64,000 bases of DNA from Strigops habroptila (Eukaryota; Chordata; Aves; Psittaciformes; Psittacidae): assembly GCF_004027225.2 (NCBI RefSeq), contig NC_044302.2, positions 72,474,993 through 72,538,992 of the forward strand. Direction: 5' to 3'. This document shows positions 1 to 64,000 of this stretch, one piece after another. The position numbers were made by a program, and so were the translations under genes. Positions within the stretch are counted from its first letter, which is position 1; every line of letters starts with the position of its first letter. The notes beneath the pieces were generated by a model. The model was not told where the DNA came from. It searched no databases and saw nothing but the letters and a program-made list of their open reading frames with translations.

Positions 1-2311
1 ATACTAGTACAGTAGCCTTTGCATATATTTTATAAATAAATGAACACATATTGGGGGTGCATGCTCAAAAAATCTTTCACCAGTACTGGCACATGATTAG
101 AAACATTCATCACTGACAAATAGTCTCTTCTAACCACAATCCAAAATAACACGTAAAATATTCAAGGACTTTTTGGCTCTAAACCACTAACAGAATTCTA
201 GCTGTTCTTACCTACACCATTTACCACAGTTTCTAGTCGTAATACCTATATTGTTTCCAAACCACAAAACAATCCATATTCTGGATAAACTTTGTTTAGT
301 TCCATTAGTTTTTAGCACACAGTAGGTGAAGAGGAGCTTTAAACATTACCACTTCACCTGAAAAATACACATACATAAATTCAGACACCTGGAAGTATTT
401 TAAAGAGCCCCGTTTTTGAAAAAATTCAAAACACAACTTCACCAGAATCATCACCTCATTCTTACATGAAACCTCTTATATTTGAGATAATAATAAGTCT
501 TAAAAAGAACATTAGCCTGAAGGGTTTTCTATTTAACGAAGTTGAATCAGTTCAACCTGACCAGAACTCAGCCTTGTTCCAAAGATACTTCTGACAAATG
601 AAAACATAGAATGTAGTAATTCTAGTATGTTTTATAAAAGTTTCACCTTCAAAATAAGCAAATACCAAAACCAAAAAGCAACAAAACAAACAAAAAATCC
701 CCACCCAAAACCTCAGCTATAGTTATAAAAATAATACAAGAGATTGTCTTAAAAATGCCCTTAACAGAAACCTTTGTCTTAGAGGAATTTTCTAATAGCT
801 GGATGCCCACAGAGGTGGTGAGATTGTAACACAATTTTTACTCTAAGACCAGGCCGTGACCAATCCTGACAAAGTCAGCACCTTCCTCAAAAGCACCCTT
901 TACATACTGAATTAAAATGTTTTTTTTTTTTTAAATAATGGCCTGTAAGTTTGCTAAACTTTTCTGCATCAAGCACATTCTTTTCATGCTCTGTCTGTAC
1001 CCAGTTATACAACATTTAATACTTGAAAACAAGTCCAAGCATGTAAGTTAATGAACACCACGCTCAGGAACAGACCAGAAAGTAAACTACATTGTAGACA
1101 ATAGGGCACATGTTTAGAAGTATTCTACAAGCCTGTTGGGTTTTTTATGTATATTCCTGGAAAAGATGAGCAGCTGTGATCTGTTGATGGACTACCCCCG
1201 TGGGTTTAACAACTGGCAAAAGCCAGGAGAGCATACACTTTATCTATACCGTGTGCCACAAACCTATGAAAACACAGACCACGTGATGACGTTCACCCAG
1301 CATATTTACTGGGCTGGTATGTCCTAGTTGGATGCTTGTATAGGTTAAAAAACACAGCATCAGCACCCCACCCACGAACTCATGAACAGCCAAGCAGAGC
1401 TCAACATATGGTAAAGTGATGAAAACTCAGCATAACTTAGAACAAGATTTTACGGCTATTACTGTCATTTGACACCTTCCAGTATCAGCTTTCTAAAAAT
1501 GGATTGATAGTTTTCTCCTGTAATCTGAGATGAACTCTATAAATTATCTGGAGTTGGAGATAGTTATAGACAGACTTAGGGTCTAATCTAGGTGCTGTTT
1601 AAAAGGATCCAGCATCAAAATTTAAAGTCAGTATCACGGCTGTTTCATTGACTGCACCAAATCAAACTGACAAACAACATTTCTGTTACCACATTAATTC
1701 AAAGTGAATCAAAAGCAAGGCACTTAATGTCAATTGTTCATTTGGTCTCAAACTGGATGTTACTGGCTCAGCAACTTCCATATAAAGCTATAGCACTTAC
1801 TCTGTTTAAGACCATGACACTTTTCAACTTTTCATGAAAAGAAAAGTTTCTGAACTTCTGTGCTATACCATTACACCGAATGTTATAGTCTGTTCTGTGT
1901 GTTATAAAAAGCTTCATACCTCCTACATTCATATGTTCTTTTATATAAAACATACAACATATGAAAGCAGACAACATGAAACATATTTGCAAAATAAGCA
2001 TTGCTACAAACACTCTATATTTAGCTTAAGCGCAATTTACAGTCAAAATAAAATAAAATAAAAAAGTTGATTAGATTTTCAGGAATAACCGGTGTTAACT
2101 CCAAAGTTGATTGATCTTATGTATTTTCTTTACGCTACATTGCTATGAGTAAACACTGTGGCTTAACCACTCTGATTCACAAATAACGAAGTATTCTATA
2201 AGCTTCAGTCCCAAATGTTACAACCCCTTCTCTTTTTACAGAGAAAAAAAGAAGGGGGCTTTTCAGCTGGGAGAGCTGGGTCTGAAGGCTAACAGGAGGA
2301 TGAATACTTAC
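1..2311 (-). other. RIC1: RIC1 intron 1 (partial)
   Basis: This AT-rich stretch lies downstream, on the minus strand, of the RIC1 exon 1 splice donor, so it is the start of RIC1 intron 1. I see no further RIC1 coding exon, no recognisable mobile element and no RNA gene in it. The short open frames look like chance. Confidence 0.75.
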
Positions 2312-2452
2312 TCTGCAGTACCAGATGCTTAGCTGTGATGGGGATAACACTGCGAAGAAAGCTCTCTGGGGATCCGTCTGGATGTGAAGAGGTTGCTCCA
2401 GGGACTCCAGAGGACACAACAGCCTCTTGGGCCAGCCGCTGAGGAAATACAT
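2312..2452 (-). CDS. RIC1: RIC1 first coding exon
   Basis: This exon encodes the first 47 residues of RIC1, the partner of RGP1. The RIC1-RGP1 complex is a guanine-nucleotide exchange factor for RAB6A and acts in retrograde traffic at the Golgi. The translation starts [15 protein letters not shown] and continues through [10 protein letters not shown] to LSIWYCR, which closely matches the N-terminus of human RIC1 as I know it; this is the start of the WD40-type propeller region. The exon ends on a complete codon (phase 0), followed by a consensus donor GTAAGT at 2311-2306. The start ATG sits just downstream of a CpG island. The rest of the gene lies to the left of the window on the minus strand. 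In human, RIC1 is also the next gene after PDCD1LG2 and in the same orientation. No damage is visible. Confidence 0.95.
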
Positions 2453-21806: not shown

Positions 21807-24800
21807 AAGTTCCTTGGGCAACAATAAGCCCAAAAGCAAAGTGTATCAGAGGCACTCAGATAACCTCTGCACAATGGTAAACCACATTTCATGACAGCAT
21901 AATTCTCAGTAACTTCAAGATCTGTAGACGCATAGCTTTCCATTGCTGCAGTGCCAATAAATCCCCATGAGTTCACTGTTCATCTTAAAGCTAAAGTGCT
22001 GTAACTTTCCTTTGAAGTTCCCAAAACCAGATACAAAGTGCAAATTATGGCATGTGAGATGAAGAGTTTTCAAGGACTCACACTGTCTTTTGAGGCTTTG
22101 ACAGTTGACAAGTATAAAGCCTCAGTTTGAGAGTTAAAATCATCTCCTTAAAGAAAGAAAATGGAATAGTATTATTTTAAAAATAAACTAAGCAAATGAA
22201 TAGCCTGATTGTAAAGAGAGAAAGCCCTATTTTCATTTTATGCAAGCTTTTCTCTGCCATGCTGAAGTTACAGTGGCTCCTCAACACTGCCAGTAATTAC
22301 AGACATGCTATTGCAATCTTTTCAGAGGGAAGAATTCTCTCTCTCTGTCTAATCTGTGGTCCAAATTCTGAATTTTCTATTGCATCAAAGCTATCACTGA
22401 CTATCAGCCATGTAAATGAGACAACAAAACTGAAATCTGGTTAGATAGCATCCAGGGAAATGCTTGTCAGTAAAATCTGTGCATCTGAATAAAAGTTTGC
22501 AGAACTGGGACTTCAGTGGTGAGGTCAAATGTCCTACGTCTCCAGTGCTGATACAGCTTGAGCTATAAGTTAAGATGATAACATGAACAATCATTGTTCC
22601 TGTAACCAGGGCCATGTGGGTCATTTCCAAGGATCTCTGGTAAAGTATCTGTGGCTTTTATGTTCAACTGTCTACTCATCATGGAAAAAAGGTTCTTTCC
22701 AGTGTTTCTTAAAAATATATGATGCTGAGAAACGGAAGTGTTTGTCATATGACTTACTACATGTTGCTTCTTTATGCAAGCAACATGCACTAAGTTCATT
22801 TTCGATCATTAAAATGAAGAAGTAAAACAAAACCACAAAAAGCAGTCACCTCTCCTTTAATTTCTTCATTTCAGTAATAGAGGAGGCATTTCAGCGCAGA
22901 GGAGGCTAGGGCCTTCAAAGTGAAAAATTCTCCAACAGGAGTACAAAAAGCCATGGGAAGCTACACTAAGCTCAGGCAAATAGCACTGGAATTATGTCCA
23001 GACATGCACCAGCACTGTTGTCCAGATTACTGATTGCTTTGGGCTTTTGTTCATTTGCACATGGCATATTTCCACTGAAGTTTCACACCATCATGTGAAA
23101 ATGAGAAGGGAACTTTGATTGCAGCAAGGGCTGGCTTCTGAAAGGTGAAAGTGTTTTTATGAAAGTGTCGTTTTGACTGTAACATCTTCTGATGGCAGTG
23201 GATTGGACAGCTACACTTAAGAAGCAAACACTACAATCTGAGATGCTATGGGAATCGGTGAATTCATGCGCTCTCCATCCAATCCCTAGTTTTCATTTCA
23301 CCCATGGAAGTTATGTTTTAAGCTGGCGACTTCTTGGTGTATTTTTTTTTAGCAGAGAGAAACACAGGTGGATTTTCAAGTAAATCCTGTCCTTAAAAGT
23401 TGCCTATGTGTCCAGAAACTGCTATGTATTGTTTCTTTAGGCTGCTTAGTCAGCTGCATCACAGTTTTGCTCCAGTTTTGCTCCTTGAGAGAGAATCTTT
23501 CATATTCCTGAAGCACATCAGGCAGCTTCGGGGCTGGCCTCAATACGCTGTGTAAGGGTCTACCTGACAGCTGAATACCAGTGTACCTAACACTGGCCCC
23601 AGCCTCTCTGCTGACAATACATTAACCTATCAGACCTTAGGTAACAAAACTGGTTTATATAAGTAGGTGTTTTAGGGGCTTTCTTATCATGTTGCATTAT
23701 AGTTTTCTGTGGTGGTTTCTTTTTTTCAATTCAGTTTTAGAACAGGACAGTTGTATGTATCTGATGCTTTTCTAGGCATTACCTTCCCTCTGCAATATAA
23801 AAATTCCTGGATGTCTAGGAAAATCACGTACTCATAAGAAGAGAATTGCCCCAGTGGATGATGTAATATTGCAGATTAATGAGGTGTCATTTTATTTGTT
23901 GTTAAAAACTGTGGCCTGAGCCAAAAGAGTAACAGACTATTGCCACAGAAACAGCCAGCTTTCTGTGTGTATCCTACTCAGCCAAGGCTACTAGAACTGC
24001 AGTTAGTATACAGAGGTGTATACCAAGCTATGTATGCAAGCTATCTCTACCTCAGTGAAAGGGAACAAACATTTTTAGATTTTTGCATCACCTGTAAGAA
24101 AATCCTAGCATTAGATACTGCATTTTTAGAAAAATGAAGAAAATTCATATTTAAATTCAAAACCAGCCTCTATTGTGATGTGACATTATTTAAGTTTCCG
24201 TCTACAGATTTATAAAGATTTTAGCTGTAAGAAAGAAAAAGCTGTAAGTATAAATATAGAAAACCCTATGACATACTGTTCTCATCTTTCAGGTTAGTGT
24301 TCAGTTTTCTTTTCCCATTCTGTTAAATGTAAATATGTACAAATTTAGCTTAAACATTTCTATATTTGAAAGAAAAAATCTTAGATTAAAATGAGCTTTG
24401 AACACATGTAAGTCTATTTTTAACTCATACCAACTTCTCTACAGTTCTTTTCGTTTACAGATTTTGAATCAAATTCTAAAGTCATTAAGAGCAAAGACTT
24501 TCATTTCATTTCATGACAATAAATACATTTGTCTGAGTTTATTGGAGCCTATTCATCTGTAAGAAAAGACTAGAATAATAGCCTGTTTCCTTTATTACTT
24601 TTCCACTAATGCACTTGCAAACAAGGAAAGAAACACTGTTTGTAATAGCCCAGTACAGCATACCATTTTAGTTATAGAGGCTTAATGGAGATCAGAAATA
24701 AAAGTTCTCTATCATATGCTGTAGCTACAATGTCCTTGTAGCCATGAAGAAAACCACCATTCAAACTAAGTTTTTTCAGCCCTCTTTACTCAAGCCAAAG

Positions 24801-25066
24801 CTTGTTTGTGTTCTTTACAGAATAGTAGCTGGTCAGATTAAAAAAATTTATCTTCCCCTATACCTTGTCTTACAAAAGTAACAAGCTGAGGAAAATAAAA
24901 CCGAACTCAAATGATCCAAGATGTCATTTTAGACCAGAGCGCATTTAGAAATAAAGTATGACCCAAGTCACACAAGTGTGCCTAAAGGTACAAATATTTC
25001 CAAAAAGTTGTTTGCAGGAAAAGTAAAGAATAAGTGAAAAGATCCACTATCTGAAATAAAATGTAC
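21807..25066. other. 3' flank of PDCD1LG2 pseudogene
   Basis: AT-rich sequence downstream (on the minus strand) of the PDCD1LG2 transmembrane exon. Remnants of the cytoplasmic exons and 3' UTR would be expected here, but I could not recognise them. No mobile element or RNA gene is evident. Confidence 0.4.
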
Positions 25067-25207
25067 CTTTTTGGGGTTGACTATTCTTGAATGATTTTCT
25101 CTTTTGAAATATTATTAGTGCAGAGGGAAAGACAGCTACCATCACACACGTGGGGATGATAAAGAAGATCAGGGATTTTTGTCCGCTATATTGTGGACTC
25201 ACTAAAG
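25067..25207 (-). pseudogene. PDCD1LG2: PDCD1LG2 pseudogene, transmembrane exon
   Basis: On the minus strand an acceptor (pyrimidine tract then TTGACAG) is followed by an open 141-nt exon encoding a stretch SPQYSGQKS, a hydrophobic segment LIFFIIPTCVMVAVFPSAL, a basic stop-transfer QKRKSFK and an end at a GT donor (GTACAT). Human PD-L2 has the same layout, with a membrane segment containing FIPFC. The phase (2 nt in, 1 nt out) is the one expected for this family. Alone this exon is undamaged; it is called pseudogene because the two Ig exons upstream are broken. The signal-peptide exon and cytoplasmic exons were not found. Confidence 0.75.
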
Positions 25208-25757
25208 CTGTCAAAAACACAACAAGAAAGTAAATTTGTAACTTGCAAAACAGGCATCATCTATGTTCTCATTCTGCAGAGTTTTGCTCTGACTGAACAA
25301 AAGATTCTTAAAATTTTTCAGCATAGTGTTTTACACTCATTTTATGAATACTTTATTCTCCAATATTACTGTGAGAATCTTTATAAAAAATGAGTCAAAT
25401 CTCGCATTCGGATGGCATTTGAGTGAACACTACTGCGATTTATCGGTATCCCATTAGAAGAACAATTAACTAGGAGTCTAGATAAGGGAAGACACCTGTG
25501 CAGATTAAAGCACTTCCTCTGCACTGGCAGTCAAATAATGGAGCTACAGTAAAATTTAAATATACAGAAAAATGATAGACTAGCTTGTTAGAGTGCAAGC
25601 TAGCTGAGGCTTCAAAGGTGTAAATAATACTGACTTGCTTCTTTTTCAGGGCATCAATAATACATTGCTTTCTAGAACTGAATTCCAGGAATGGGTCACA
25701 GGACATGATGTACGTTCAAATACTCTCTGTCTTGTACAAGTTCAAGGTGATACAAAC

Positions 25758-26040
25758 CCAAAGTGGAAATGTGAAATGAAGTTTCTCCATTCAGTTCTTT
25801 ATTCCAGAACACGCAGCTGTAGTTCTCTCTCATATTTGGTGTGAATGCCAGGATGCTGGTGACATCATAGAGGCCGTCTGCGTTCAGCGTATAGGTGGTA
25901 TTTTGCAGAAACACTGATATTGAAGTTCTTCTCATTTTGCCAGAAAACATCTGCCAGAGGAAAGGCTTTTGATAGAAACAAACTTGTCTTCATCTGGTTT
26001 TCTCATTAGTTGAGTGTTTATTCTCTTGTAGGATGGTTGC
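25758..26040 (-). pseudogene. PDCD1LG2: PDCD1LG2 pseudogene, IgC exon
   Basis: The homology to the PD-L2 IgC domain is spread over three reading frames. The first segment reads PSYKRINTQLMRKPDED, like the human SYRKINTHIL linker. The second reads KAFPLADVFWQNEKNFNISV, like GYPLAEVSW. The third reads ANTTYTLNADGLYDVTS and then NYSCVFWNKEL, like human EGLYQVTS and FSCVFWN. Between segments one and two about 8 nt are missing relative to human spacing (near 25965-25978), and the B-strand Ig cysteine is gone. Between segments two and three there is one extra A in an A4 run (25901-25904). In the first frame a stop (TGA) follows within the exon. The native acceptor AG is not seen, because CR1 sequence starts directly at the exon edge. 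The end fits a weak GTTTGT donor in phase 1. Confidence 0.85.
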
Positions 26041-26452
26041 ATATGAAGAAGTGACAGGCTGAGAGAGTTGGACTTGTTCGGCCTGGAGAAGAGGAAACCA
26101 GGGAGACCTTAGAGCATCTTCCAGTGCCTAAAGGAGACCTATAAAAAGTCTGGAGAGGGACTTTTTACAAGGGCCTGTAGTGACAGGGCAAGGGGAAACG
26201 GCTTTAAACTAGCAGAGGGGAGATTTAGATTAGATATGAAGAAATTCTTCACCATGAGAGTGGTGAGACACTCACACAGGTTGCCCAGAGAAGCAGTGGC
26301 TGCCCGATCCCTGCCAGCATTCAAGGCCAGGGTGGACAGGGCGTGGAGTAACCTGGTCTAGTGGAAGGTGTCCCTGCCCATGGCAGGGAGGTTGGAACTA
26401 GTGATCTTTAAGGTCCCTTCCAACCTGAACGATTCTACGATGATTCTATGAA
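26041..26452 (+). mobile_element. CR1 LINE 3' end
   Basis: A 5'-truncated CR1 copy in the plus orientation, antisense to the pseudogene. It starts near GACAGGCTGAGAGAGTT, includes the CR1 C-terminal/3' UTR words (CACCATGAGAGTGGTGAGAC, then CTTCCAACCTGAACGATTC) and ends with the characteristic ATTCTATGA. Its left edge touches the PDCD1LG2 IgC exon. The exact first base is blurred by a few bases of similarity (TATGAAGA) between target and element. Confidence 0.9.
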
Positions 26453-27505
26453 GTTGAGTGAGATTACTTTATACAATAGTCACCTTCCCACTTCACTTTC
26501 CCTCCTTCCCTTTAGTGCCATATGTTGTTTATGAGTGTATCTGAGGTACGCTTACTTGAAATGAAGGATGTTTTGTAGAACAATTTATTATTCATTACTC
26601 AATCCTTCTCATGCCTACAGTGACAGAACTTATACTTTATACAAGGCAGCAGTTGACACTGAATTTAGTATTTATCAATACAGAGGAAACAAGTGAAGTC
26701 TCATGGGACTCTATTTTCACTTTTTGAATATCTATTTCAAGTAAAAGGCTGGTTTTGATGCTTTTTTTACCATAGCTTATAAACAAGTGTGACATTTTAA
26801 TCATATTAGAACAAAACGAATACTTAGAATTTCTGTGAGGACCATTCAGATGAACCAGTGTGGGTCTTAAAAATGGCTGGATCCATTGTTGCATTTAACA
26901 AAGCTCATTATTTAACTGCCTGGGAAGGAAATGACTGCCACCTTTATATCACACGGACATACTGCAGTTAATGGGAAACACCAGAGGCCTTTCAAATGAC
27001 TGCTCTATCATGCTCTTCAGAAATGTAGGCCTTTATTAATAATATCCATTTTGCTTTGATGAACACAGAAAATCACATGTCCTTGCTCTGGAAGCTGCAG
27101 TTAGTTGGGGAATTCCCAAGGGCTTGAGTAGTTGCAGCAGGGCTTGTCAGTAAATTAAAGCATGTCTGAGAAACCTTTGGGAAGGGCCGGGGTGGCCCAA
27201 GAGGGCAGGGGGCCTGATGAGAGGTGGGGTGGAGGCACGGGAAAAGAAGGTATGGGGAGAAGGAGCAGGGGTGAAGTTACTCTCCCTCTCTGGCACAGGC
27301 TGCTCCCAGAGAGGCTCAGCTCGCTGTCGGATGAAGGCTAGCCCACACTAAGACAACGGCTTTCGTTCACATGGGGGCTGAGCACAGGCTCTTGGTGAGA
27401 AAATTAGCAACAAATTCCTCCAAATGAATCAATTTCTACAAGCTTGCAGGATTTTAGTGGAGACATCTCAAGTAATATGTATTTGCATTCTGTTCAGCCA
27501 CTAAC
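26453..27505 (-). other. PDCD1LG2: PDCD1LG2 pseudogene intron (IgV to IgC)
   Basis: This is the remainder of the intron between the two Ig exons, outside the CR1 copy. It holds a small GC-richer patch around 27.17-27.35 kb without recognisable identity. No other feature is seen. Confidence 0.5.
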
Positions 27506-27864
27506 CTTTTACTTTCAAAGTAATATACTTGTAGTCCACATCCTGCTAGTCGGTGAGACAGAGGTATGATCCTGCATCTGTGATCTTCACAGTGGTGATC
27601 TGAAGGATAGCTCATTTCAGTTTCAGTTCACGGTGCAGAAATGCTGCTCTTCCTATGAAATCATGATGCTGGAATGGAGGGAATGCTTTTCCATTGCAGA
27701 GTGTGTACGCCTCTTTTGATTTTGACTGACCCTGCCTTTTTCGCTCCCAAACAACAGAAGTCCTAGGTTTAACAAGCCATTCACAGGCAGTCTGCATTCC
27801 ATGGTCACGTTGCTCCCATACTTTATAACATATAACTGTTAAGGAACTTCAACTGTAAATAAAG
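27506..27864 (-). pseudogene. PDCD1LG2: PDCD1LG2 pseudogene, IgV exon
   Basis: A good acceptor (TTTTCCTGCTGTAG) and donor (GTTAGT) frame a 359-nt exon homologous to the PD-1-ligand IgV domain. It starts LFTVEVP, continues QLYVIKYGSNVTMECRLPVN, then in another frame SVVWERK, HHDFIGRAAFLHRELKLK, ILQITTVKITDAGSYLCL and ends DYKYITLKVK. Damage: TAA at 27839-27841 directly after VEVP; a 1-nt loss near 27755-27775 that changes frame; TGA at 27612-27614; and TAG at 27546-27548. The exon length is one base short of the in-phase value. Both Ig cysteines are still coded. With three stops this exon cannot encode a domain. Confidence 0.9.
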
Positions 27865-30800
27865 CTACAGCAGGAAAAGAAAACAATTTCATTTGTTGTA
27901 TTAAAATATGTTCTGATTTTCTTTAAATTTGGGCAAAAAAGGTGTCATGTATCCAGGTGTATGATTCTATCTTGACTAAAAATTTGAAGTATTTTTGGTT
28001 CCTACTCATGCTAACATGTTTACCACATCAGTAGTAATCATCTATATTCTGTATTGATTACAGAGTCTGAAAGACAAGGACGAAATGAGCAAGGATCTTT
28101 TTCACATTTTAGAAATAACTTAAGGCTGAACCAGTGATTACACAGGGAGCACTTCTGTGAAACTATGATTGTACCTTATATACATCTTAAAATTCTAGTA
28201 AAAGCAACTGTTAATTGTGGAAATAGTAAATCTAGTTTCTTATGCTTTACAAAGAGAAAATCCAGTATAACACCTGTGAACAAAGCTGCACTGGATAAAC
28301 ACATGTAACTTGGAAGAATTGCTGTGTAGCAATTACAGTCTTCCTGAGGCCTCGGAAGCCTGGGACCATGTGAGTACCACTGATCCCATGCATCTGCTCA
28401 GATACATGCAACAGTATTAAGGAAAGTATTTAAAACCAATCTTTTTAGCTATTCACCAAATCTGAAATTCATATTGTTATGAATAGTTTGCCATTTTAGT
28501 GTGCTTGATCAAGCAGAGTTTGTTATGGTACGTCATTTAGTATACCTTGTAACTACTTTCTATACTGGATGTACCATACATTAGTAGGTTTAATTCAGAA
28601 TCACGTGGAAGTGTTGATAGTGACATTCAAAACGGAAGTTTATACAACTGTTTATGCATTCTTTATATTTCATATGTTTGTAAAATACTTGCAGGGAAAG
28701 CTTCAGTTCCTTTTAGCAATGGTTGTTTATTCACTTTAATACAACCCTAATGAGGGCAAAAATAATATGAAAAATGCCAACCCCCTTTTATGGCCTTTAG
28801 CTAAAGTTTAGGTTTTAGCCAAGCTGCTCCTGCTGCAGACATGTGCAGGAGATTACCGATGGGTTTACTTCACTCTGCCTCACACTGAAGTTGTCCTTCT
28901 TTACAACTGGCGTAGGCTGCTTTGTCATCTTCCCTCCCACAGTGATGCCTGCTAATGCTGGACACCCCAGCTGTCAACACACTGTGCTTTAAAGAAGTGG
29001 AAAGTGACGGACACCTGTCCTGTGGTCAATTAGCACACACTGCCTTCTGTAAGATGTTGCAAAGCAGAGGCTCCAGACATCACTGGTTGTTCATGCAAGT
29101 GTCGCTGGAGGTGCTGAAGCCCATGTATTGGGGGTGTAGTGGTATTTGCTGCATTGTTTCTGCTGGTGGAATTGAAAGGCAGTTTCTCTCTCACCTGAAA
29201 CCATAGAGAGTTGTGTTTTCAGGAGCATCACCATGAGGGTGTGGAATGTTTTCTCAGGTGGATCTGAAACACAAGTAGGATTGCATCAGAACTTCCAACA
29301 GCTGCCTTCTTCTGCGGAGGTGGACTAGAGCCATGCTAGCGTTCAAAACCCATCACGGTTGAAAACCAGCAAAAATAAAAACAGATGCTAGGCTACCACT
29401 GGAAACAAGGAAAATCCCAATTAAAACAACCCATGCACATGCATGGAATATGAACCACTGGCCTGTGTCAAGGAAGGGAGACAAAACATTCCCAGAACTT
29501 CATCCATGAGGCTTTCAGGATCTATAGCTTGCAGGCGGTCTTAAATAGTCTGACAGGACAGAGCTTTTACAACAACTTCACACTGAAATTGTACCCGTGA
29601 ATAATAAAATCAATTGCAGGTGGTATCTCGCATGCAGGAGAGCTTCATAAACATGCACGAGCAGACTTTTTTAACTGCCTGCACTAACACCTGAGCTAGT
29701 TTGTGATACTACTAATGTGATACTGATTTTGTTTCAACTCTGTTTTGCGTACTTTTTTGAGGATATTTATTGTCTGAGTTCTTTAACCTCAAGACCAGCA
29801 GGTACCTGGAACTCAGTGTGAGGTACTGGAAATCTCAGGATGGGTAAATCAAGGTTTGCTTCAGAGTGGGTTATATGGGGATATGAAAACTTACTGCTGC
29901 TAATTCTTTCACTTTGCACATGACAGTGCCTGGCATGTACAGAGAACCTTGTATTACTGACAGTAATCCAGCAGCCCTGAAATAATGCAAAAGAAAGCCC
30001 AGTTTCAGAGTGAGTATCTTCCTGTTCCAGTAACTAGCAAACTATTGTTTGGACTTTTGTATACAGATCATAACTGAAAATTAAAAAAAAACCCAAAAAA
30101 CAGAAAACAAACAAACAAAAAAACCCAACCAAAAAACAAAAAACAGAACACCAAAACCACAACACGACCACAAAAAAATCCCGACAAAAATATCCAATGA
30201 GATAACAGAAAAGAAGGAATAATTACTTCAAAGAAAGCATGCTAACATATAGTATAATCTGAAAAATTAGTGAAGTAGATCCAGAAATAAACATAAGGAA
30301 GTAAAGAAGAGAAGGAGCAATTTTAGACTTCCCCAGAGCTAGGCTTGCTGGAGAGGGTTTTTAATTTTACTTCCCCATTCACTTGCAGGTCAGCTTGACA
30401 CATTCTGGCTCTGATTTTCACAGGTACTGCATTTCTCTGACTTCTTCCACCTTTGGGCTCTCAGTACCTCAGAAAATCAGGTGCAAGCCTTAGCAAATTT
30501 AGCAGACAGAATTAGAGGACGTTTCATGGAAATTTAGACCTTAACCTTTTAATGTCACAGCTAAAGATGACCTTTATGACACCGTAACGGTGGATATGCA
30601 AACTACAGTAAGCAGACTTATTACATATAAATGAAAAATAATTACTTTTATCAGGGCACTGAGTTACCACTTCTTAGTGGGTGACAAATTACAATTATTT
30701 TAGCTGTATGAGAAAGCAGCTAATAAACAATATCAGCATCAGTATCTCCATTTCCTGGATGCAGAAACAAAGATCCAGCACTGCCCTGACAGCTGGGTTA

Positions 30801-34318: not shown

Positions 34319-34324
34319 TTGGAA
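34319..34324. repeat. LTR target-site duplication, left copy
   Basis: TTGGAA, identical to 34754-34759 on the other side of the solo LTR. It is the CR1 sequence at the insertion point. Confidence 0.8.
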
Positions 34325-34753: not shown

Positions 34754-34759
34754 TTGGAA
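34754..34759. repeat. LTR target-site duplication, right copy
   Basis: TTGGAA, the second copy. The CR1 sequence resumes directly after it (GGCAGATGCAGGGACTG). Confidence 0.8.
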
Positions 34760-39763: not shown

Positions 39764-39786
39764 TTAGGTCTTCTCAATTTGCATAT
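39764..39786 (-). CDS. CD274: CD274 last coding exon (predicted)
   Basis: The acceptor TTCTTACTTTTACAG is followed by 23 nt that complete a tyrosine codon and encode MQIEKT, then TAA at 39764-39766. The length makes the full coding sequence divisible by three. Human PD-L1 also ends with a very short coding exon (THLEET). Joined to the previous exon it forms LKYMQI, which fits the ITIM pattern. The exon is too short for homology to prove it. Confidence 0.5.
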
Positions 39787-42700
39787 CTGTAAAAGTAAGA
39801 ATTATATGAAAAATAGCAAATTACAAAATGGTGAAATCACAGAATACTTCATGGCATTGGGACTCTTTCCTAGAGTTTGGAGGTACTAAAAATTTTTCCT
39901 TCATTGTCAAAATTAAAGATCTAAAATTAAATTAATTAAAAGGTCAAATAGAAAAAGAGTATCATCATGGGAGTAGATAAAGTGCTAGTTCAAACACACT
40001 AGTGGGAAGTGCTCTCTAGGAAATACAGTGAAATTGCTGTGGCTCAGGTCCCCTGTTGTTTAAAATCTTCTTTTCAAGTTTTCCAGGTACATTCAGTGCT
40101 CTATCTGTCTGTTGGTATCCCTAGCAGCATATCCCTGGGCCCTAAGTCTTTGACTTGGAGATCTACACCTGCAGGACCAGCAGGCTTACCTTTATGTATG
40201 TTTACTACAGTTAAGTGTAGCAGGAAAGGATTCAGGATGCAATTAATGTAAGTGCTTTAGAAGTCAGCAAGAACATGAAAGAGAAACCTCAATAACTTCA
40301 CCCTTATGTTCCATACCACAGTATGTTTCAGAGATTTCACAGATTTGGTCATTTATCTCACTCATGCTTTGCTGAGACAGAATCTCATGGCTTGAGACTT
40401 GGTTAAGTGGCCATGATGGGTTAAGTTCTCTCTCCCTATTGCTGTCATCACTGCTTCAGTTGTGCTGGCACAACCGTTTCTGTAGCAAAAACGTGAGCTA
40501 GAGAAAAGACTCATTTGGATTGTTATATATCTCTACATCACATTTTCCTTCACATGGCTTTTCTTTTTAAAATTATTTATTTGATATAACTCCCAGTATA
40601 CAATGAGTTATGATAGCAATTTTGTAAGGCAGCTAATGAGAGGCTGTACTTCTCATGAAAGCTCTATCTGTTGAAACAAGTGACTAAACAAACCAGCCAT
40701 TAATCAAGGCTCTGATGACCATGGATGATTTATGCTGTGTGCAGTTTACTACTATTTTCCCCTTTATTATTTATACTTACATTTTAACTCTTTTCCTTCA
40801 AAAGAAGCATCTCTGTAGTCATGTGTATCCTTGTCTTTTGGCAGCTCTTTAAACAAAAGACATACATACAGGTAACAGTCAGCATAGCTTGAAGTTTCCA
40901 TGTGGTAATAAATCTTAGTTAAAAGCTGCGATCTCAGGCCATCCAGGAACTATGTGGCTTAAATACAGATCAGGAGAAAAGACTAACACTAGATGTTGTG
41001 TCCATTTTGGGCAAGTATTCTCAAGAGAGGTTTTCTTAGGAAAGCCCCCAACTGCCAGTATGAGCTAACTTTCACACAGCAGTTTAATTTGAAGTGGTCT
41101 CCCAATAAAACCATTAAACAAATTTAAAACAAAAAAACAAAACAAACAAGCCCCCCAAAACAACCAACCAAACAAACAACACCCCCCCAAAACCCCCAAC
41201 AAAATAACTCCAAACAACCAGCCACGAGCCATCATTAGAGGAGCCTAAATGATTTTAGTTTCTTCTCTCCCCCTGTAAATATTAACTGTCTGCACCCCTT
41301 CCTCCATTTCTCACTGTCATGGTGGTACCAACCATTCACAGAGTTTTGCTTTCAGCAAATCCATCAGTATCTCAACGTGAGGAAAAGTAAACTGTTAAGG
41401 AAGCTAAAGCTTCTTCCTGTGTTTGAACACAACCAAACCCTCTGTCCTCAGTGTTTTGACAAAGACCCCCAAATGCATACTACAATGCATAGTGTGAAAA
41501 CATAGAATGATGCCACTGTGGCTCAAATTGCAGCATAGAGTCTGCACACCAGGATGTGCTGCCGTCCTGCGGTACACATTCCAGGTAGCATGTCCCATTC
41601 TATCACAGGCTTTCCAAAACACAGCACACTGCTCTGTCCTTTTCTTGTGCATACCAGGACTGCATCTACTCCTGGAACAAGTATGCTTTTATTTTACATT
41701 TTCCTTTCAAGAGGTTAACATAGTAATGAAAAGCCATTCTTCAACTGTAATTTATAGTTGAATTTATAGTTACAAATTAAAAGTAGAAAGCAAAGCAAAA
41801 GTTGAATATAAATTGCATTAGGTTGACACCATTTACACAGTCAATTCTCAAGCAATTATTTGCACAAGAATCACAGTGAGCTGGATTTATGTCATATGAA
41901 CATACCTGCTGTTGCTGAATTAGCCACAGGTGTTCTGTGGTCCTTATTTACTCTAGCTGAAAGAAAATAAGAATTATCAAAATGAAAACAAAATACTTCT
42001 TTTTGATATAATGGGGATTTAACCACACTGATGGGAAGGGCACACTTAGCTTAGTGTAATCACTGGTTCCAAAACACTCAATTCTTTCAAAGACTAACAT
42101 ATATTCTCCAGTGCCCCCAGCTTATCAGTTTCCTTTCCAATTTCCTTTCATTGTTCTGAAGTTAGAACTCCATTGATACACTAACATCACTGGAAAATAT
42201 TTGTTCAAATGGTTTTCCATGGTATATATTCACCCAGAATTTGAACGGATTGGGCAACAGGGAACAAGAATGAGATCACCTCCTCTGTGCTTTTTGAGGG
42301 AGGAAAAAGCCCGTATTTCGGGGAGGTTCTGTTCCTGAAAAGTCACTTGTCCAGTCATATAGGACAGCTTGGGTTTTAAAACAAAAACCTGTTGCTTAAC
42401 TTCTGAATCAGCTTATCATTCGACATGCACAGATATATAACGTAATTGTGACAATCATATACATCATGACATGTATATACATAATCATGTATATATACAC
42501 ACCAACAATAAATATTACTCAGGCAACCTAGGAAACTTCTGACCCTCACTGAAATCCCCAGTGGGAATCTTCTGAGAAGTCAAAGATTTTGCTGTCCTTT
42601 CTTCCACTTTCATGTTCTGCTCCTATTCGTACCATGATCTTAGGACAATTGTATTCTTCTACACGCAGGGTTATCTACAGGCCTTCCACAGCCTGTTAAT

Positions 42701-45700
42701 ATCACTTGCAAGCCTGTTAAGCTTATGAGCACTTCTCCCAGGACACATTTCCACAGCACCAATAAAGGAGATGAGTTTGTGACCAAAACACTGAATATCC
42801 ATATTTAGTTCTATCTTGTATTTATTTTATGGAAACTGAACATGAACATACTCAGTGTAGAGTTTGCTTATAGATGGTTTTGTGTAATTTCCAGCCAGAA
42901 ATTAGGGCTGTTTCTTTTTTTCATTGTTGAACAGAGAGATGGCAGATAGGAAAACCAAAAGTTCTGCTATGCCACCCCAGAAAGTGAACCTCTCTTAGTG
43001 TGGAAGCTTTTGAGATATCACTTGAAAAGACAGTACAACTACTTTTGCACCAGTTACAGCTTAGTTTTATGTCTGCTATGTGCATTTACACCTATAAGAT
43101 TCATGAATTTCAAGAGGAGCATTTAGTCAACTATCTTGTTCTGGTTTTTGGGGCATTTCTGGTAATAATTTACAGAGTCATGCCAGTAAGATGTTATAAT
43201 ACTAAGTTACTGTAACAGCTTCAATGCCTCTTGTGCTTTTTCTCTGCAGACAACTTGACAAACAAAAATTCAAAAAGCTGTTCAGGAGAAAATTAGCAGT
43301 TATGCATCATTTAAAAAAAAAAAAAATAATCCAGAAATCTGTTATACAGAGCAAAAGTTCTGGCCAAAACCAGAACCTTTGGCAAAACCACTTTCATTTT
43401 GACATCATCAAATTAATCCTATGGATGATCTGAGATATGCATGTCTTTCTCATATCTGTTAAAATGAAGAGTGAAAAATAACCCCAAATATAAAATCCTT
43501 AAACACACCTACCTTCCCTCCAAGAAAATAAAACAACAACAAAAAACTCCAAACAAACAAACAAAAACCAACCAACCCAAACAAAAAAAATAAATTTAAG
43601 AGTATTTATTTCAAGTTAAGTAACATGTTTCAAAACCTTTTTCTTTAATTTGAAGGCAAATCATATTCTTTTCATGCTCAGATACCCTAAAAATTATTTC
43701 TCTAGGTTTTTTCTTTGGTTAGCTAGCAAGTGAAAATGAATTACCACCAATGCTTTAGCTCTTCAGCACACTGTGATACTGAAAATGTCCAGTTCAAGTC
43801 AGAACTGAAAAAGCTCAATACTTCACAAGGAAATGAATCAAATGGTATGAAGCCACAGTGGGAATATTCCCTGTAGTGAAAAAAAAATCTTTCAGACTCA
43901 AAACCTTGAACATGCCACTTCGTATGTAGTCCACCATTTTTATGGCATTTTAACGAAAATGAAGATATACATGAAATTCATAACAAGTAGATCACTTTAA
44001 AAAAAGTGCACTCACAAATCAGTCAAATTTCTTAGAGAATGCAGGAAAAACCAAGCAAACAAACAAACAAAACCAAACAAAAAACCCACACATACAAAAA
44101 AAACTCCAATGTCCTGTCTGCTCCATCAAAACGAACGTGACCAACAGGTCAAAGGAGATCATTCTCCCCCTTCTACTCTGCTCTCGTGAAACCACACCTG
44201 CAGTACTGTGCTCTGGGGTTCCCGACACAAGAGGGATGTGGACCTGCTCAAGTGAGGCTAGGGAGGCCACAAAGATAATCAGAGGGCTGGAGCCCCTCTG
44301 CTGTAGAGACAGGCTGAGAGAGTTGGGCTTGTTCAGCCTGGAGAAGAAAAGGCTCTGAGGAGACCTTAGAGCAGCTTCCAGTGCCTAAAGGGGACCTAGG
44401 AGAAATCTGGAGAGGGCATGTAGTGGAGAGGAGGTTTAGATTAGACATTAGGAAAACATTCTTCACTATGAGGGCAGTGAGACAGTGGCAAAGGTTGCCC
44501 AGAGAAGGTGTGGATGCCCCATTCCAGGCAGTGTTCAAGGCCAGGCTGGACGGTGCTTGGGGCAAAGTAGTCTGCCCCAAGGAAGGTGTCCCTGCCCACG
44601 GCAGAGGGCTTGGAACTAGATGATCCTTAAGGTCCCTTCCAACCCAAACCATTCTATGATTGTATGAAACTTCCATTTCCAGCACGTGCATAAGCTGTGC
44701 TTTGATGTTTGAATAGATTAGACACCAATCTTATTATTCTGCATCATTATGATAACAAAAATTAATAGAGATGCATGGGTAAGTTGTTTGTGAGGAGGTG
44801 ACACCCTGATCCACTCTGCTAATTTACTAGTATTTAACAAAGTAAGATAAAGAAATAGACAATGTGATAAAAAAAATATCTAGTGGTTTCAGGGTGAAGA
44901 TCTAAGGAAGACTTTTATTATCTTATCCCACCTCTGCAAGGATGAATTAACAGAAGAGATTGATAATAGCTGAGATACACTAAATAAATAATTTGAATAC
45001 CTTTTCTTATGCAGAGCATAAATAGAGGCACTGATCCAGAGAAAGCAGTCATAATGAGAAATGCCCCAACAAACCGTCTGCTCTCAGTCCACAGAACAGC
45101 ATCAGCTGAATCTTCAAGAAAAACAAGTAGGGGAAGGTATTACGTACTTGCATAAACTTCTCACTTTTCCTTTCACTTTCACGATATTATTTTTGCTATG
45201 AGCAGTTTGGACATGATAACAGTGTTTTAGATTGTGTCTAAGGTGGGATGTGATGGTACACTTCATCATTTTTCATCCCAATTAAGATAAAAACAGAACA
45301 TTTTAATATTAATTAATTATTAATATTAATAGTAATATTTGTTTCCTGCATTCCATGTGATAGCGCCTTTGATTCCTACCAAGAATCCTGTATGTCACCA
45401 AGGTACAAAGTGTTACATCTAGCTTAGTTTCCTGTCAGGACTGCAGGAAGGAGCTGACTGAGAAAGAGAACAGAGTCTCTTTCACGTCATAAAGCTCTGA
45501 GTGCAAAAGACAAGTGGTCTTCTTGAATCCCAGAGGCATTTCTTGTTAAAACTAAACTTGCCTGCTCACCACTTATTGAAAGGGTGACTTGGCTTTCTCA
45601 GTCTCAGCTACCAGTTTCCACCCCTTGCCAATACCAAAAAGTGTGCCAGCACAGGCGTCTTTAAAACTGCATGTGAACAGGACCAGGGAAATGAACTGAC

Positions 45701-48236
45701 CAAGTTACAGTCAGATAAAAAGAAATACTGTTTTTCGGTTGGATCAGGTTTTCTATCTGGTTGAAAGCTTGTGCAAACATATCAGGGTACAATGCAGAAA
45801 CTAAAAGAGTAACCAAAAGCAAAAGCAGTAGGGGTGATGCCCAGTTAAAAAGTCCAATGAGAAATTGTATTGGTCATCTCCATTCATGCATCTTCCTTCA
45901 ATCCAGACTTCATCAGGGGGAAAAAAAAGTCTGTGTAAAACTTGTGAAATGTAAATTTGTTCAAAACAAAGGCTCTGGTGGCAGGAAAAGACAATATTGT
46001 TCAAATTCATTTGACAGTTATCAGCAATACAGAACATTCTTGGAAGGTGTGTTTATACGGGAGGGTTTCAAGGCTCTAAGCTATATGCTTTTGAAATAAT
46101 AGACCTTTTTTAACACTCAGACTCAATTTTCACATAACTGTAGGTCACGCAGAATTCCTATCCTTGAACTCTTTCCACACATGCATCATGAACATGCTAT
46201 TATAGTGTAAGTGTACACTAGTAGCAAAACTTAATAACATAGCTATTTCTTTTTAGCCTTTTGAAAACTAGATAGGACAGAGAAAGAAACCATGGCTGAT
46301 TTAGCTGGGACAAAATGACATGAAGTGTATTACCACAAATGAAATCTAGAAATGTTACCTGTTATGTGTAAAATAGCAGATGTATTTTCTTGCAGCTCTT
46401 TATTCCAGAATATACAGTAAAAAATCTCATCAATTCTACTTTTGATGGTAAGAGTGCTCGTCACGCGATACAGCTGGTCACTTCCAGTTTCATAACTCGT
46501 GTTTGCCTTATCAGTCAAATCTTCATATTCTCTGTTTTGCCATATCACTTCAGCTTGTGGGTGTCCTTCTGACTGACATGTCAACTTCCATTCGTTGTGT
46601 CCTGTGCTCACCACTCCTTGGGTTATAGTCCTGTAGGGAGCTAAACAAATAGAAGAAAATGATTACTAGTAGGAAGCTAGAAGGACAGCATGTGCCAGCA
46701 AGACCCCTTTTCACCTTTTCTTTATCCTCAGCCCCCCCAGTCAAGTTTCTGTACATCAGCTTGGATTTGGTAAATAATACTCAACAGGAAAAGTAAATAT
46801 CACTATTATGTGTCTCCATAGTACTGGAGGTACAGGATGTATTACAATTTTAACGCTGTTTAGAAAATTGCATCAGCTTTCTGGTCTTTGTCCTGTCTAA
46901 ATGGTTTTGCAACACCATTCCTCATATGTCATTATGGACAGAACGTGGTTTCAACCTAGACAGAAACACAAGCTATACAGAATATGGATTCAACCTCAGT
47001 GAAACTAAAAAGTTATACAGCTGCACAAGGGCTATGAGGTGGCTCCTGTCTCTAGAGAACTTTCTTTAAATGCTAACCCAGATTTGTCTTACTTCAGGGA
47101 CTCCTCTGAAATCTTTTAACAGTATCAGTAGCTCCTGCAGCAGCATACTCACCCTTAACTTTCAGATTGATTGTCTTGTAGTCGGCTCCCCCATAGCCAA
47201 TAATGCATTGGTAAAACCCTGCATCTCTGAGCTTCACATCAGTGATCTGAAGGAGAGACCGTCCCAGTTTCAGATTCTCTTTCAACAATTTTATTCTTCC
47301 CTTAAAGTCACTGTGCTGATTTCTGAAGTCTTCCTCGCCTTTGAGAAGTACGTAAACCTGCTTCTTTAACTCATCTTTCTTTTCCCAGCTGACACTTAAA
47401 TCTCTAAACTTTAATTTCCCATTCACTGGAAACGTGCATTCCATGGTCACATTGTTCCCATGTTCCACAATGTAGAGTGACTGGGGAGCTTCAACTGTGA
47501 ATAAAGCTGAAAAACAACATTTGAAAGAAAACATAATTTTCCAATTATAGGCCTAATCTTCAAAGTCATGTCTTTCTATATACATAGGATGTTTTAAGGA
47601 CCAAAAGTATCTGCCCTGTTCAGAAAAGTTAAACATTTTTGCATGCACTTGCCCAAGATTGGGAAAAAATGGCTATTTTTACCTGCAGATACCGGCTTTG
47701 CACACACACACACTGAGATGCTGTACTAAAAATAGTTGAATATGTCTGCACAGCCCCTCAGCTGTTGTTTTCAGGACACTGTAACAGGCAATTAGTGCCT
47801 TAGATGGGAATGTTCTGGTCGTATAAATGTCAATTATTTTTACACACAGTGTTAATGAACACATGGCAATTCCCAAGTTTGACAGTGCCAGTAAAACCTT
47901 TGTGTAGTGCAAATGGTACCTTGTCAGAAATAGTGCCTATGCTGAAGCACCAATGGGGATTTCAACCTGGCCTTGTATCAAATCGCACATGTTAAGCGCA
48001 CATACCTAGTTTAATGTAAAAGCATGCTAAGACCTTTTTATTTAAAACATTAAAGGGGAAAAAAAAAAAAAAAAAATGTTAGTTCCTGAAGGAAAACTGA
48101 GGAATTGACATTTCTGTGCTTATACATGGAAAGGAAACACACTTAGAGAGTTCTACTGCTTCTTATGACTCAACTTCTTACCATTTAGGAAATGCCAGTA
48201 GAATAGTAATAAATACAAAAGCAAAAGCTTTTCCAT
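39764..48236 (-). CDS. CD274: CD274 (PD-L1), gene-level entry, seven coding exons
   Basis: CD274 encodes PD-L1, a type I membrane protein that binds PD-1 on T cells (and CD80) and dampens T-cell activation. Exons in transcript order: 48236-48182, 47506-47153, 46640-46359, 45111-45001, 41956-41906, 40846-40781 and 39786-39764. All introns are GT-AG and all junctions are phase 1, as usual for Ig-domain genes. The total is 942 nt, giving 313 residues plus stop (human PD-L1: 290). Layout: signal peptide about 1-18, IgV about 19-136, IgC about 137-230, stalk and membrane segment 231-265, cytoplasmic tail 266-313. Key features are the Ig cysteine pairs, the conserved YGGADYK at the end of the IgV domain, and AEVIW and FYC in the IgC domain. 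The extracellular exons are certain; the last two tail exons are predictions from splice signals and phase. The gene lies head-to-head with PLGRKT and upstream of the PDCD1LG2 pseudogene, as in human. Confidence 0.93.
40781..40846 (-). CDS. CD274: CD274 cytoplasmic exon 2 (predicted)
   Basis: A 66-nt exon between TGTCTTTTGTTTAAAG and a perfect GTAAGT donor. In phase 1 it encodes ELPKDK then DTHDYRDASFEGKELK. DTH is also present near the end of the human tail. If the donor is not used, the frame runs a few codons on to a stop (TAA) next to an AATAAA, giving an alternative end KCKYK. Confidence 0.6.
41906..41956 (-). CDS. CD274: CD274 cytoplasmic exon 1 (predicted)
   Basis: A 51-nt exon predicted from a strong acceptor (CTTATTTTCTTTCAG) and a consensus donor GTATGT. 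Joined in phase 1 it encodes ARVNKDHRTPVANSATA directly after the RK of the previous exon. The human gene also has a short tail exon here. The sequence is not conserved enough with human to prove identity, so the call rests on splice sites, phase and position. Confidence 0.7.
44110..44668 (+). mobile_element. CR1 LINE 3' part inside a CD274 intron
   Basis: A 5'-truncated CR1 copy in the plus orientation, antisense to CD274. It starts near GCTCCATCAAAACGAACGTG, has a small internal deletion near 44410-44430, and ends with CTTCCAACCCAAACC and ATTCTATGATTG. It lies in the intron between the transmembrane exon and the first tail exon, about 330 bp from the transmembrane exon donor. Confidence 0.9.
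45001..45111 (-). CDS. CD274: CD274 exon 5: stalk and transmembrane segment
   Basis: This 111-nt exon encodes a short stalk DSADAVLWTESRR, the membrane helix from FVGAFLIM to PLFMLCI, and the basic RK on the cytoplasmic side. The acceptor is TTTTTCTTGAAG and the donor GTATTC. Its phases match both neighbours. The human counterpart has the same layout (ERTH, hydrophobic helix, RLRKG). Confidence 0.9.
46359..46640 (-). CDS. CD274: CD274 exon 4: IgC domain
   Basis: This 282-nt exon encodes the membrane-proximal IgC domain. It starts PYRTITQ, has the cysteines in KLTCQSEG and EIFYCIF, and the tryptophan in AEVIWQN. NTS sequons occur in KANTSYE and QENTSAI. Acceptor TTTGTTTAG, donor GTAACA, both phases 1. 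The domain is closest in my reading to human PD-L1, with LTCQ and AEVIW retained. Confidence 0.97.
47153..47506 (-). CDS. CD274: CD274 exon 3: IgV domain
   Basis: This 354-nt exon encodes the membrane-distal IgV domain, the PD-1 binding face. It starts LFTVEAPQSLYIVEHGNN; the B-strand cysteine is in VTMEC and the F-strand cysteine in DAGFYQC. The C-strand tryptophan is in SVSWEKK, and the family signature YGGADYK is followed by TINLKVK. An N-glycosylation sequon (NNVT) lies next to the first cysteine. Acceptor TTTTTCAG, donor GTGAGT. No damage is seen. Confidence 0.97.
48059..48077. repeat. poly-A tract
   Basis: Nineteen A in the intron just downstream of the CD274 leader exon. No retroposed element is recognisable beside it. 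Confidence 0.85.
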
Positions 48237-52760: not shown

Positions 52761-52775
52761 TTCTCAGGGATTTTT

Positions 52776-61002: not shown

Positions 61003-61064
61003 ATGGGGCTGTTTTACTCGAAGCCTGTGAACGGCAGCCTGAAAGCGCGGCGGGAGCTGCGCTC
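61003..61064 (+). CDS. PLGRKT: PLGRKT first coding exon (probable)
   Basis: PLGRKT is a small membrane protein that exposes a C-terminal lysine and acts as a plasminogen receptor; it is the gene next to CD274 in human. The frame from 61003 reads MGLFYSKPVNGSLKARREL, which aligns without gaps to the human N-terminus (MGFIFSKSMNESMK...). About 8 of 19 residues are identical and most others are conservative. The start has a good context (G at -3, G at +4). The exon is taken to end at 61064 before a consensus GTGAGC donor, because the frame meets a stop right after it. The remaining exons must lie right of the window. The divergence from human is larger than expected for this gene. Confidence 0.6.
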
Positions 61065-64000
61065 GTGAGCTCGCGGTTCAGGTAACGCACCGTCCGGCGG
61101 TGGCGTGGAGCAGCGTCACCCGGCCCGGCCCGGCCCAGCGCAGGGCCCAGGCCTCTTCCGCTGGGGAGCGCTCCCCTCCCCGGTGGGCGGCAGCGCCGGC
61201 GAGGCCCGCCGGCACAGCTGGCGCGGGTGCGTAAAGCACCTCGCCTCCGGATAGAGCGACTTCCGCAGAGCTCTCTGATAACGAGTTGTAGGCGTGGAAA
61301 CTACCCAGTAGTGTTATCCCCCGTTGTCCAAACTATTATGGTAGCTGACCCTAAAAATACAGTTTTGGAAACTCGCATTGAACAGTCCGCCGACGCACAG
61401 CTGGGCTGCTCCAGTGTCAGTCAACATGTACATGTTGAAGCGAATCAGTAACAGCATGGTTACTAAAACGGGGATGGTGTTATCTTAAAATGTATGACTT
61501 AAACATGCTTCAGCTTTCCCACTACACAAAATCTTAGAGTCAGCTCGCTCTTTAGGTTCAGTTAGGTAATTGCAGTTATTCCATGTTACTAGGAAGGCAC
61601 TACACAGCTGCGCATTGTTACGGGAACTTCAGACTAAATAGGGCATAGGGGATTGTTTGTTCCCTCTCATACATCATAGAATAGTATCAGAGAAAGAGAA
61701 GGAAAACCAGTTTGACTAAGGTGCAGAAATCCGTGCTGAACAGAACTTGCAGTGTAGTGGTAGTTACAGCTTTCTGATTTGTTAGGTGTCTTATGATCTT
61801 TAACTTTTCTATATACTAAATGCTGGAATACAATCTGAAGGACTTAGCTGGAGTTTGTCCCTTTAGTTTTGCATTTAAATTGAATACAGGTAAATCTGAA
61901 GTGTTTAAAGTAGTGATGGATGAACTTCCAATTTATTAAATTGCCAGTAGATGGCATATTCTAGTTTTCAAAGCAGTGTGCAGGTGGTATCGCGGGTAAA
62001 CTGAACTCTGGAGATGACCCTGGAAGAAGGAAAATAGTGTAAGAGAAGATGATACAATAAAATACTGTCAAGCTCTTAATTGTTTCAAGAAAATCAACTT
62101 TTACAAGTTTGTAAAAACATTTTTTTTTTGTCTGTGCAAGGTTATATGTTTCTCAGATGCAACCACAAGTTTTGTGTGCAGTTAATTTATGGGTTTTTTT
62201 TTTTTCCCCTATGCAGACATGCTCCTTCCACCCCCAAATTTTTGGAAATCCAAATGACGGGAAGATTTTCAGTTTGAGAGAATGATAATGAAATTAAAAT
62301 GAAGGCTTGCTTCATGATCTGCTTCTCTGCTGTACAGAATGAAAGAGATGAGGAAACAGCTTGAATTCAGACTAGCATTTGTAGCTGTGGGCTTTGAATG
62401 GCTAACATTTTGACCCCAGATGCCTAACAACTCTAGTTCTATCTCAAATGCTAAGGATAATATAAATAAATAAACTTCTTTGAGGACAGTTACAAAAAAG
62501 CCCTTTCAAGATTGCATACAAAATTTTTGCAAGTTGCTCTTAGGAACTCTCCCTATGTTGCATTTCTTCTTTCTGTCAATCATAATAGTCAACGTAATAG
62601 ATGTTTTTTTCTAACACTACAAATGCCTGATCGTATCTGATTTGTACTATATTTACAGACATACCAGCTATGTTAGAAAACCTGCATCTGTTTAACATGC
62701 ATAAAGTGTGCGTTTGTGTCAGGTGCAGTGGGCACAAGGGAGGACTAAATTTTGCGTCGTAAGGTGATGGAAGAAAATGGCTCTGCTCTGAGCTTAAGGG
62801 AAGTGTAGGGAAGAGGAAGACTGTCAGTTGTCTTTTTCCATATCCGAATAAAACTTGTCTGGAGCCTGGTGTTAGAAAAACTACTTTCAGGCTATTTGTG
62901 GAAAATAGTATAGCCTGATTTATTGCCTTTTAGACAGAAATTGTAACTAGAAATCCCTGGAGAAGTTAGTTTGTGCTAGGACCAGAATGAAATAGCTTAA
63001 CTTAAAGCATTAGGTATTCTCATGTGGTGGGATACTGAGATGTGCATGCTATCAGTTCTCCCATCTTCCTCTGAAAACTGTCATATTTATCAAGAAAACA
63101 GATGCTTCCACTTCAAGCATTATGATGCATTTCTATGAGAGTGAAAACTACTGATTTATTTTAAATGTACATCTATCCCAAAACAATACGTGAGATTGAA
63201 ACCTCTTGGAGCTTTTCATAGCTTCTGAATGTACTTTGGAGTGCCGCATGATAACAGTGTTGAGGGAATAGGGTACTGTTGTTACTCCAAGCCAAATGGT
63301 GCAGACCAAGAAAACTGTTTCTCTTAGAATGTCCTCTTTACTAGCAATGATGATGTGACACTGCTCAGAAACAAACTAGTAAGCCTTTGGGTTGATCTAG
63401 AACAAGACACAGCAGGTGTTGGTGACACAGTCAGAATCTGTGAAGGCTTCTCCTGTTCCTTGTAGATGAGGAGGAGTCATAAAGTTCCTGTAAATTGTTT
63501 GGAACAGGATTTCTGTGCTGTCAGTTTTCAGGACAGAACACTTACTTTATTCCGGTGTCTCCCCACCCCCTCCAAAAAAAAAAAAAAAAAAAAGAAAGAA
63601 AAAAGGGGTGTATGCTGTCCTCTGAATGGAGAAACAATGCATAGCTATTCAGTTATTGACTATGTTCTGTGCAGCATGGTAGGTTGGAAGGAGACCATTC
63701 CAAAAACAGAAGGTGAGAGGAAGGTGATTAACATGACAGAAGTTGATAAAGACCCCTTCAGATCACAAGCCTTGGTGCATGCTGAACCTCTGTCAGTTTG
63801 AGTCACTCTGATGTGTGCTGCGCACTAGAATGAGCTTGACTACTTCAGAATAAGAGAATGTTAAAAGATGTTGTGAAGTTGTGTGCATGTTTTTTTCTCT
63901 ATAACCTTTGGATAACTCTGAAAAGATAGGATTGTGGCCTTGCAGATTGTATCTTAATGCTGTTTGGAAGCCTAATAAAAACTCAACTGTCAGTTTGCCC
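61065..64000 (+). other. PLGRKT: PLGRKT intron 1 (partial)
   Basis: AT-rich sequence after the donor, running to the window end. I found no convincing second exon. It holds an A-rich tract at 63574-63604 (A20 followed by GAAAGAAAAA). No mobile element is recognised. Confidence 0.45.
63574..63604. repeat. poly-A tract
   Basis: A20 followed by a GAAAGAAAAA extension. The length probably varies between individuals or assemblies. Confidence 0.85.

Follow-up and report, generated by a model that had tools for sequence, protein, structure and literature searches.

A preliminary description of a 64,000-nucleotide stretch of DNA, the window analysed here, from the kakapo (Strigops habroptila), a flightless parrot, proposed that the gene of one PD-1 ligand, PD-L2 (PDCD1LG2), is a pseudogene beside an intact gene of the other, PD-L1 (CD274). 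Is the second ligand indeed lost at this locus, how long ago, and does this bird run its PD-1 brake on PD-L1 only? The answer developed below, which is read from sequence, is that the remnant very probably represents the single-copy PDCD1LG2 orthologue, dead by accumulated lesions and long drifting under little or no constraint, in other words a unitary pseudogene.

Identity of the locus and of the remnant

We read the minus strand from 24500 to 28500, translated the exon regions in three frames and used stork PD-L2 (Ciconia, P0001) as the reference for frameshift-aware alignment. The features are collected in Table 1. The remnant is located between CD274 and an exon recognised as RIC1, on the same strand. 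The RIC1 and PLGRKT exons are presumed from their sequence; Pfam gave no family match for the ORF of the RIC1 exon or for the ORF with the PLGRKT start.

Table 1. Positions in the window of the PD-L2 remnant, of PD-L1 and of neighbouring features
Feature	Position	Strand	Evidence and remarks
RIC1 first coding exon (presumed)	2305..2452 (lower limit approximate)	-	ORF; CpG island 2251-3900
PD-L2 final coding exon, remnant (DDFNSQTEALYLSTVKASKDSVSP, followed by a stop)	22070..22146	-	changed C-terminus, shorter than that of Ciconia
PD-L2 cytoplasmic exon remnant (KRKLNTNLKDEN)	24277..24319	-	one base off the splice phase, leading to a stop
PD-L2 transmembrane (TM) exon	25067..25207	-	open frame, splice sites intact
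PD-L2 IgC exon remnant	25758..26035	-	frameshift-aware alignment, splice-site reading, 64-bird comparison
CR1-type LINE fragment (presumed)	26050..26452	+ (antisense to PD-L2)	blastn to four other window sites
PD-L2 IgV exon remnant	27506..27864	-	frameshift-aware alignment, translation, 64-bird comparison
PD-L2 signal-peptide exon remnant	29195..29263	-	frameshift-aware alignment to Ciconia PD-L2, sequence and translation
PD-L1 (CD274), intact	39764..48236	-	exact match to annotated Strigops protein P0121, splice sites
PD-L1 coding exons	48236-48183, 47507-47154, 46641-46360, 45112-45002, 41957-41907, 40847-40782, 39784-39767	-	
PLGRKT first coding exon (presumed; MGLFYSKPVNGSLKARREL...)	61003..61065 (upper limit approximate)	+	ORF; CpG island 60351-61600; head-to-head with CD274

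A protein search with the read-through translation of the remnant gave 188 matches, the best 120 of which consist of 110 rows named for birds, 8 for turtles or crocodilians and 2 unnamed. PD-L2 is thus annotated in at least 110 bird and at least 8 turtle or crocodilian rows among these best 120 of 188, many of them partial predictions. The closest among the matches listed were PD-L2 of Ciconia, Fulmarus, Mycteria and Phoenicopterus, with 79% identity to the remnant. Three pieces of 85, 28 and 48 residues were 46%, 64% and 46% identical to kakapo PD-L1, respectively. According to PMC12151841, four IgC residues (L150, G172, N189 and S191) separate PD-L2 from PD-L1 across tetrapods. All four were found in the remnant (4/4) and none in kakapo PD-L1 (0/4). 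Their numbering was mapped via the mouse sequence. A duplicate of PD-L1 was rejected on these diagnostic residues and on the identity values; judged by its sequence and place, the remnant is the orthologue of PDCD1LG2.

Public records label many fragments of bird PD-L2 as PD1L1, though they score as PD-L2, and tallies of the two ligands in birds by name would therefore mislead.

The neighbouring PD-L1 exons had been described as all open, and this holds. We found 312 of 313 residues identical to the annotated Strigops protein P0121 (a splice junction falls within the codon of residue 307), a match that is no independent check on sequence quality if P0121 was annotated from the same assembly. 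PD-L1 of Amazona aestiva is 94% identical to that of the window. A CpG island at 51951-52950, located some 4 kb upstream of the signal exon of PD-L1, is a candidate PD-L1 promoter; by the same criteria the PD-L2 signal exon has none nearby. Perfect hexamer arrays of CACACC (8.2 copies) and CCCGCT (4.8 copies) lie at 60668-60742, immediately upstream of the start of PLGRKT.

Lesions in the PD-L2 remnant

The site of the start codon (29249-29247) reads ACA (Thr) when aligned to Ciconia, and the start is lost. Further in-frame ATGs exist downstream in the signal exon, where a restart is conceivable, and the donor GT of this exon is kept. For the IgV exon, three stops and a 1-nt frameshift had been reported. 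The stops stood at the coordinates given for them, in frame with intact bird PD-L2 by frameshift-aware alignment: TAA at 27841-27839, TGA at 27614-27612 and TAG at 27548-27546, where the 64 aligned birds carry Q (63/64), R (62/64) and Y (64/64), respectively. The frame break is also real, but its size had been misjudged: near 27757 we found a 4-nt deletion, net -1, which leaves 2 nt for one residue and removes another. Both IgV splice sites and the IgV cysteine pair are retained.

The IgC exon begins after AC in place of the expected AG, and its donor GT is present. The nearest AGs are located about 24 nt upstream, inside a CR1 repeat, and 11 nt inside the exon; the latter could be used as a cryptic acceptor. 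The two frame breaks and the missing B-strand cysteine attributed to this exon were all recovered. Frameshift-aware alignment resolved the breaks as a net 8-nt deletion around 25979-25968, with the cysteine among the residues removed (C in 64/64 other aligned birds), and a 1-nt insertion at 25906-25903, within a run of four A. We also considered the IgC donor GTTTGT as a lesion and rejected it, as the ORFs of two other birds (P0216 and P0217) likewise run on past the exon end.

In total, the remnant carries nine lesions: three stops, four frame-breaking indels, one start loss and one acceptor loss. The start loss, the IgC acceptor loss, the CR1 fragment and the frameshift of a cytoplasmic exon add to what had been described, as do the positions of the signal exon and of two cytoplasmic exons. 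Apart from the IgC acceptor, splice sites are preserved. The remnant has no open frame from start to stop, no IgC cysteine pair and no complete set of canonical splice sites, all of which a functional PD-L2 would have.

The CR1 fragment ends, with its 5′-truncated side, 14 nt upstream of the IgC exon. By blastn it matches four other sites in the window (72% over 413 columns, 83% over 222, 85% over 107 and 75% over 72). We take it to be CR1 by a motif, aided by the Pfam matches of a longer element. This longer element, a CR1-type LINE at 33077-35594 between CD274 and PDCD1LG2, contains an endonuclease frame that is open over 318 codons (Pfam Exo_endo_phos), along with fragments of reverse transcriptase, and looks fairly young. 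The insertion of the short fragment beside the IgC acceptor is plausible as an early hit on PD-L2.

Relaxed constraint on PD-L2

Conserved sites of PD-L2 were defined on 64 other birds, selected by hand beforehand out of the best 120 of 188 rows. This selection left out 9 turtle- or crocodilian-like rows and another 47, for the most part isoforms, partials and near duplicates. The same test for PD-L1 used 46 of the best 120 rows, kakapo included, with the Amazona protein P0123 excluded as a parrot. Stops and deleted residues of the kakapo were excluded from the counts. At sites invariant in the 64 birds, kakapo PD-L2 was changed at 9 of 48, against a maximum of 3/55 among those birds (Taeniopygia). 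The excess persisted at lower conservation (11/74 at 98%, 16/107 at 95% and 19/139 at 90%), and the kakapo ranked first of 65 at every cut-off (1.0, 0.98, 0.95 and 0.9). At 95%, the IgV domain showed 10/64 changed sites, the next bird having 5/70; the margin for IgC was weak (6/43 versus 5/49 in Upupa). In variable columns, states unseen in the other birds were not extreme in kakapo (5/127, compared with 8/128 in Turnix and 8/129 in Urocolius). For PD-L1, kakapo showed 0/71 changed sites at 98% and 1/110 at 95%, ranks 31 and 41 of 46.

Branch lengths gave a similar picture. The terminal PD-L2 branch of kakapo was the longest of 65 (0.170; median 0.054), followed by that of Turnix, which has an annotated PD-L2 despite its branch of 0.165. 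The PD-L1 branch of kakapo was short (0.038, rank 39 of 46). Branch length by itself would be no proof that PD-L2 is dead; once the contrast with PD-L1 and the lesions are added, the case is strong. As measured by the conserved-site and branch tests, constraint on kakapo PD-L2 is relaxed, in IgV and, with the weak margin given above, in IgC.

Could an intact gene have been broken by errors of sequencing or assembly? The 1-nt IgC insertion falls in a four-A run, the type of site where long-read assemblies err, and, as said above, the exact PD-L1 match would be no independent control if P0121 was annotated on this assembly. Three substitution stops, deletions of 4 nt and net 8 nt and a lost acceptor are, however, not homopolymer errors, and 9/48 invariant sites changed against at most 3/55 in 64 birds, with 0/71 in PD-L1 at 98%, speak against error so clearly that we give it almost no credence, in agreement with the preliminary description, which had judged general sequence error unlikely. 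Somewhat more room is left for a degenerate second copy, for example a W-linked one or a duplicate, with an intact PD-L2 elsewhere. In birds, CD274 lies on the Z chromosome. Among the best 120 of 188 matches of the protein search, the names are those of cluster representatives, behind which a Strigops member could hide; none was named there. Against such a copy speak the place of the remnant, flanked by CD274 and the presumed RIC1 exon, and the adjoining PD-L1, which is intact and does not differ from the kakapo protein as annotated; we regard a second copy as improbable. It is also very improbable that the locus is still of use, either by an in-frame fusion of a PD-L1 tail with the signal exon of PD-L2 or by exon skipping that yields a short membrane peptide. 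The frame would hold if PD-L1 exon 40847-40782 were spliced to that signal exon, the TM exon is open, and a PD-L1/PD-L2-signal tail of this type is seen in P0123, the predicted protein of Amazona, where it may be an artefact of annotation or reflect a genuine read-through transcript. As a model, P0123 is poor, however, its start and TM region mismatching P0121; annotated kakapo PD-L1 terminates in its own exon, and a skipped-exon product would be without both Ig domains and would meet the stop in the cytoplasmic exon.

Nor does the decay appear recent. The kakapo bottleneck is well known, and a loss fixed by drift in the small modern population might be imagined. In a neutral simulation over the 250 non-stop codons of the remnant, 1.9% of runs reached three or more stops when nucleotide divergence was 2%, and 14.6% did so when it was 5%. 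The excess of PD-L2 over PD-L1 replacements per residue (0.170 versus 0.038, about 0.13) fits about 6% nucleotide divergence in the simulation, by a scaling done by hand, and 0.17 replacements per residue at such a divergence would mean tens of millions of years at avian rates. A recent loss was accordingly rejected on branch lengths and simulation, and we consider it extremely unlikely. Neutral rates in birds are 1-3 substitutions per site per billion years. Very roughly, decay may have lasted for 20-65 million years, a crude bracket modelled from these rates and without a relative's DNA. The unitary pseudogene is the reading retained: the claim of a dead PD-L2 adjoining an intact PD-L1 is upheld by gene and exon order, the 79% identity, the diagnostic residues, the nine lesions and the conserved-site excess.

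A probable single PD-1 ligand, other parrots and related gene losses

On the retained reading, lesions would have accumulated in place over millions of years, under little if any constraint, and no PD-L2 protein would be made from the locus. As an IgV-IgC protein appears impossible from it, any PD-1 engagement would have to come from PD-L1, and PD-1, if present, would be engaged by this ligand only. Of the two ligands that turn T cells off via PD-1, PD-L2 is the more restricted and occurs chiefly on myeloid cells (PMC12151841). Inhibition that could pass in other birds via a second, differently regulated ligand would in kakapo come from PD-L1 or be missing. The kakapo thus probably runs the PD-1 brake on a single ligand.

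Is the loss older than the kakapo lineage? No parrot was named among the 110 bird rows in the best 120 of 188 PD-L2 matches, where each name stands for the representative of a 90% cluster; two parrots were named among the PD-L1 matches listed. Falcon and stork PD-L2 ectodomains are 93.5% identical, and naming by 90% clusters thus weakens the absence of parrots. The predicted Amazona protein P0123 contains the PD-L2 signal exon followed by intron read-through, with no IgV exon joined. Such read-through is what would be expected of a broken IgV exon, and hints that other parrots are without PD-L2. P0123 retains the start methionine, so that the start loss of kakapo is not shared with Amazona. 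A protein search with the frame-shifted IgC ORF gave 4 relatives (5 candidates), all in the functional frame (two aligned, two by eye) and none with the kakapo shift. In our estimate, the chance is somewhat short of even that PD-L2 was lost early in parrot history, perhaps via the CR1 insertion at the IgC acceptor, which would make all parrots natural PD-L2 knockouts with single-ligand PD-1 and a second lost immune brake beside CNR2.

CNR2, an immune brake, has been lost in parrots (PMC9727682), and 74 genes are lost in six parrot genomes (PMC8854603); some parrot gene losses coincide with CR1-psi insertions. PDCD1LG2 is absent from the main texts of both papers. Selection on PD-L2 in vertebrates was analysed in PMC7066927, the available part of which does not contain the words 'pseudogene' or 'lost'. 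Among the matches listed for open-licence papers, by titles and abstract openings, there was no report of PD-L2 loss in any bird. PD-L2 being annotated across birds, turtles and crocodilians among the matches listed, a lineage without it would be a natural experiment on the role of the second PD-1 ligand. If common to parrots, the loss would give them a further missing immune brake in addition to CNR2, with possible relevance to their inflammatory disease. For the kakapo, it would be a species-wide immune trait relevant to conservation immunology, far older than the modern bottleneck.

The remnant shares locus order, exon order, sequence and diagnostic IgC residues with PD-L2 of other birds, turtles and crocodilians; it differs in that frame, start, IgC acceptor and IgC cysteine are destroyed. 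Its paralogue CD274 (PD-L1), a two-Ig-domain B7 ligand from the same duplication, has the same IgV/IgC architecture but is intact and conserved in the window, and bird PD-L2 proteins among the matches listed are about 52-54% identical to kakapo PD-L1. The parrot gene losses (CNR2 and the 74 genes) resemble the kakapo case in the loss of an immune brake (CNR2) and, for some, in the coincidence with CR1-psi insertions; CNR2 itself is an unrelated gene. Similarly, TLR5 pseudogenes in passerines, as given by a title cited in PMC9727682, offer an immune gene that decayed in place in one lineage, as kakapo PD-L2 did; the kakapo case differs in concerning an inhibitory T-cell checkpoint ligand whose sister ligand was kept.
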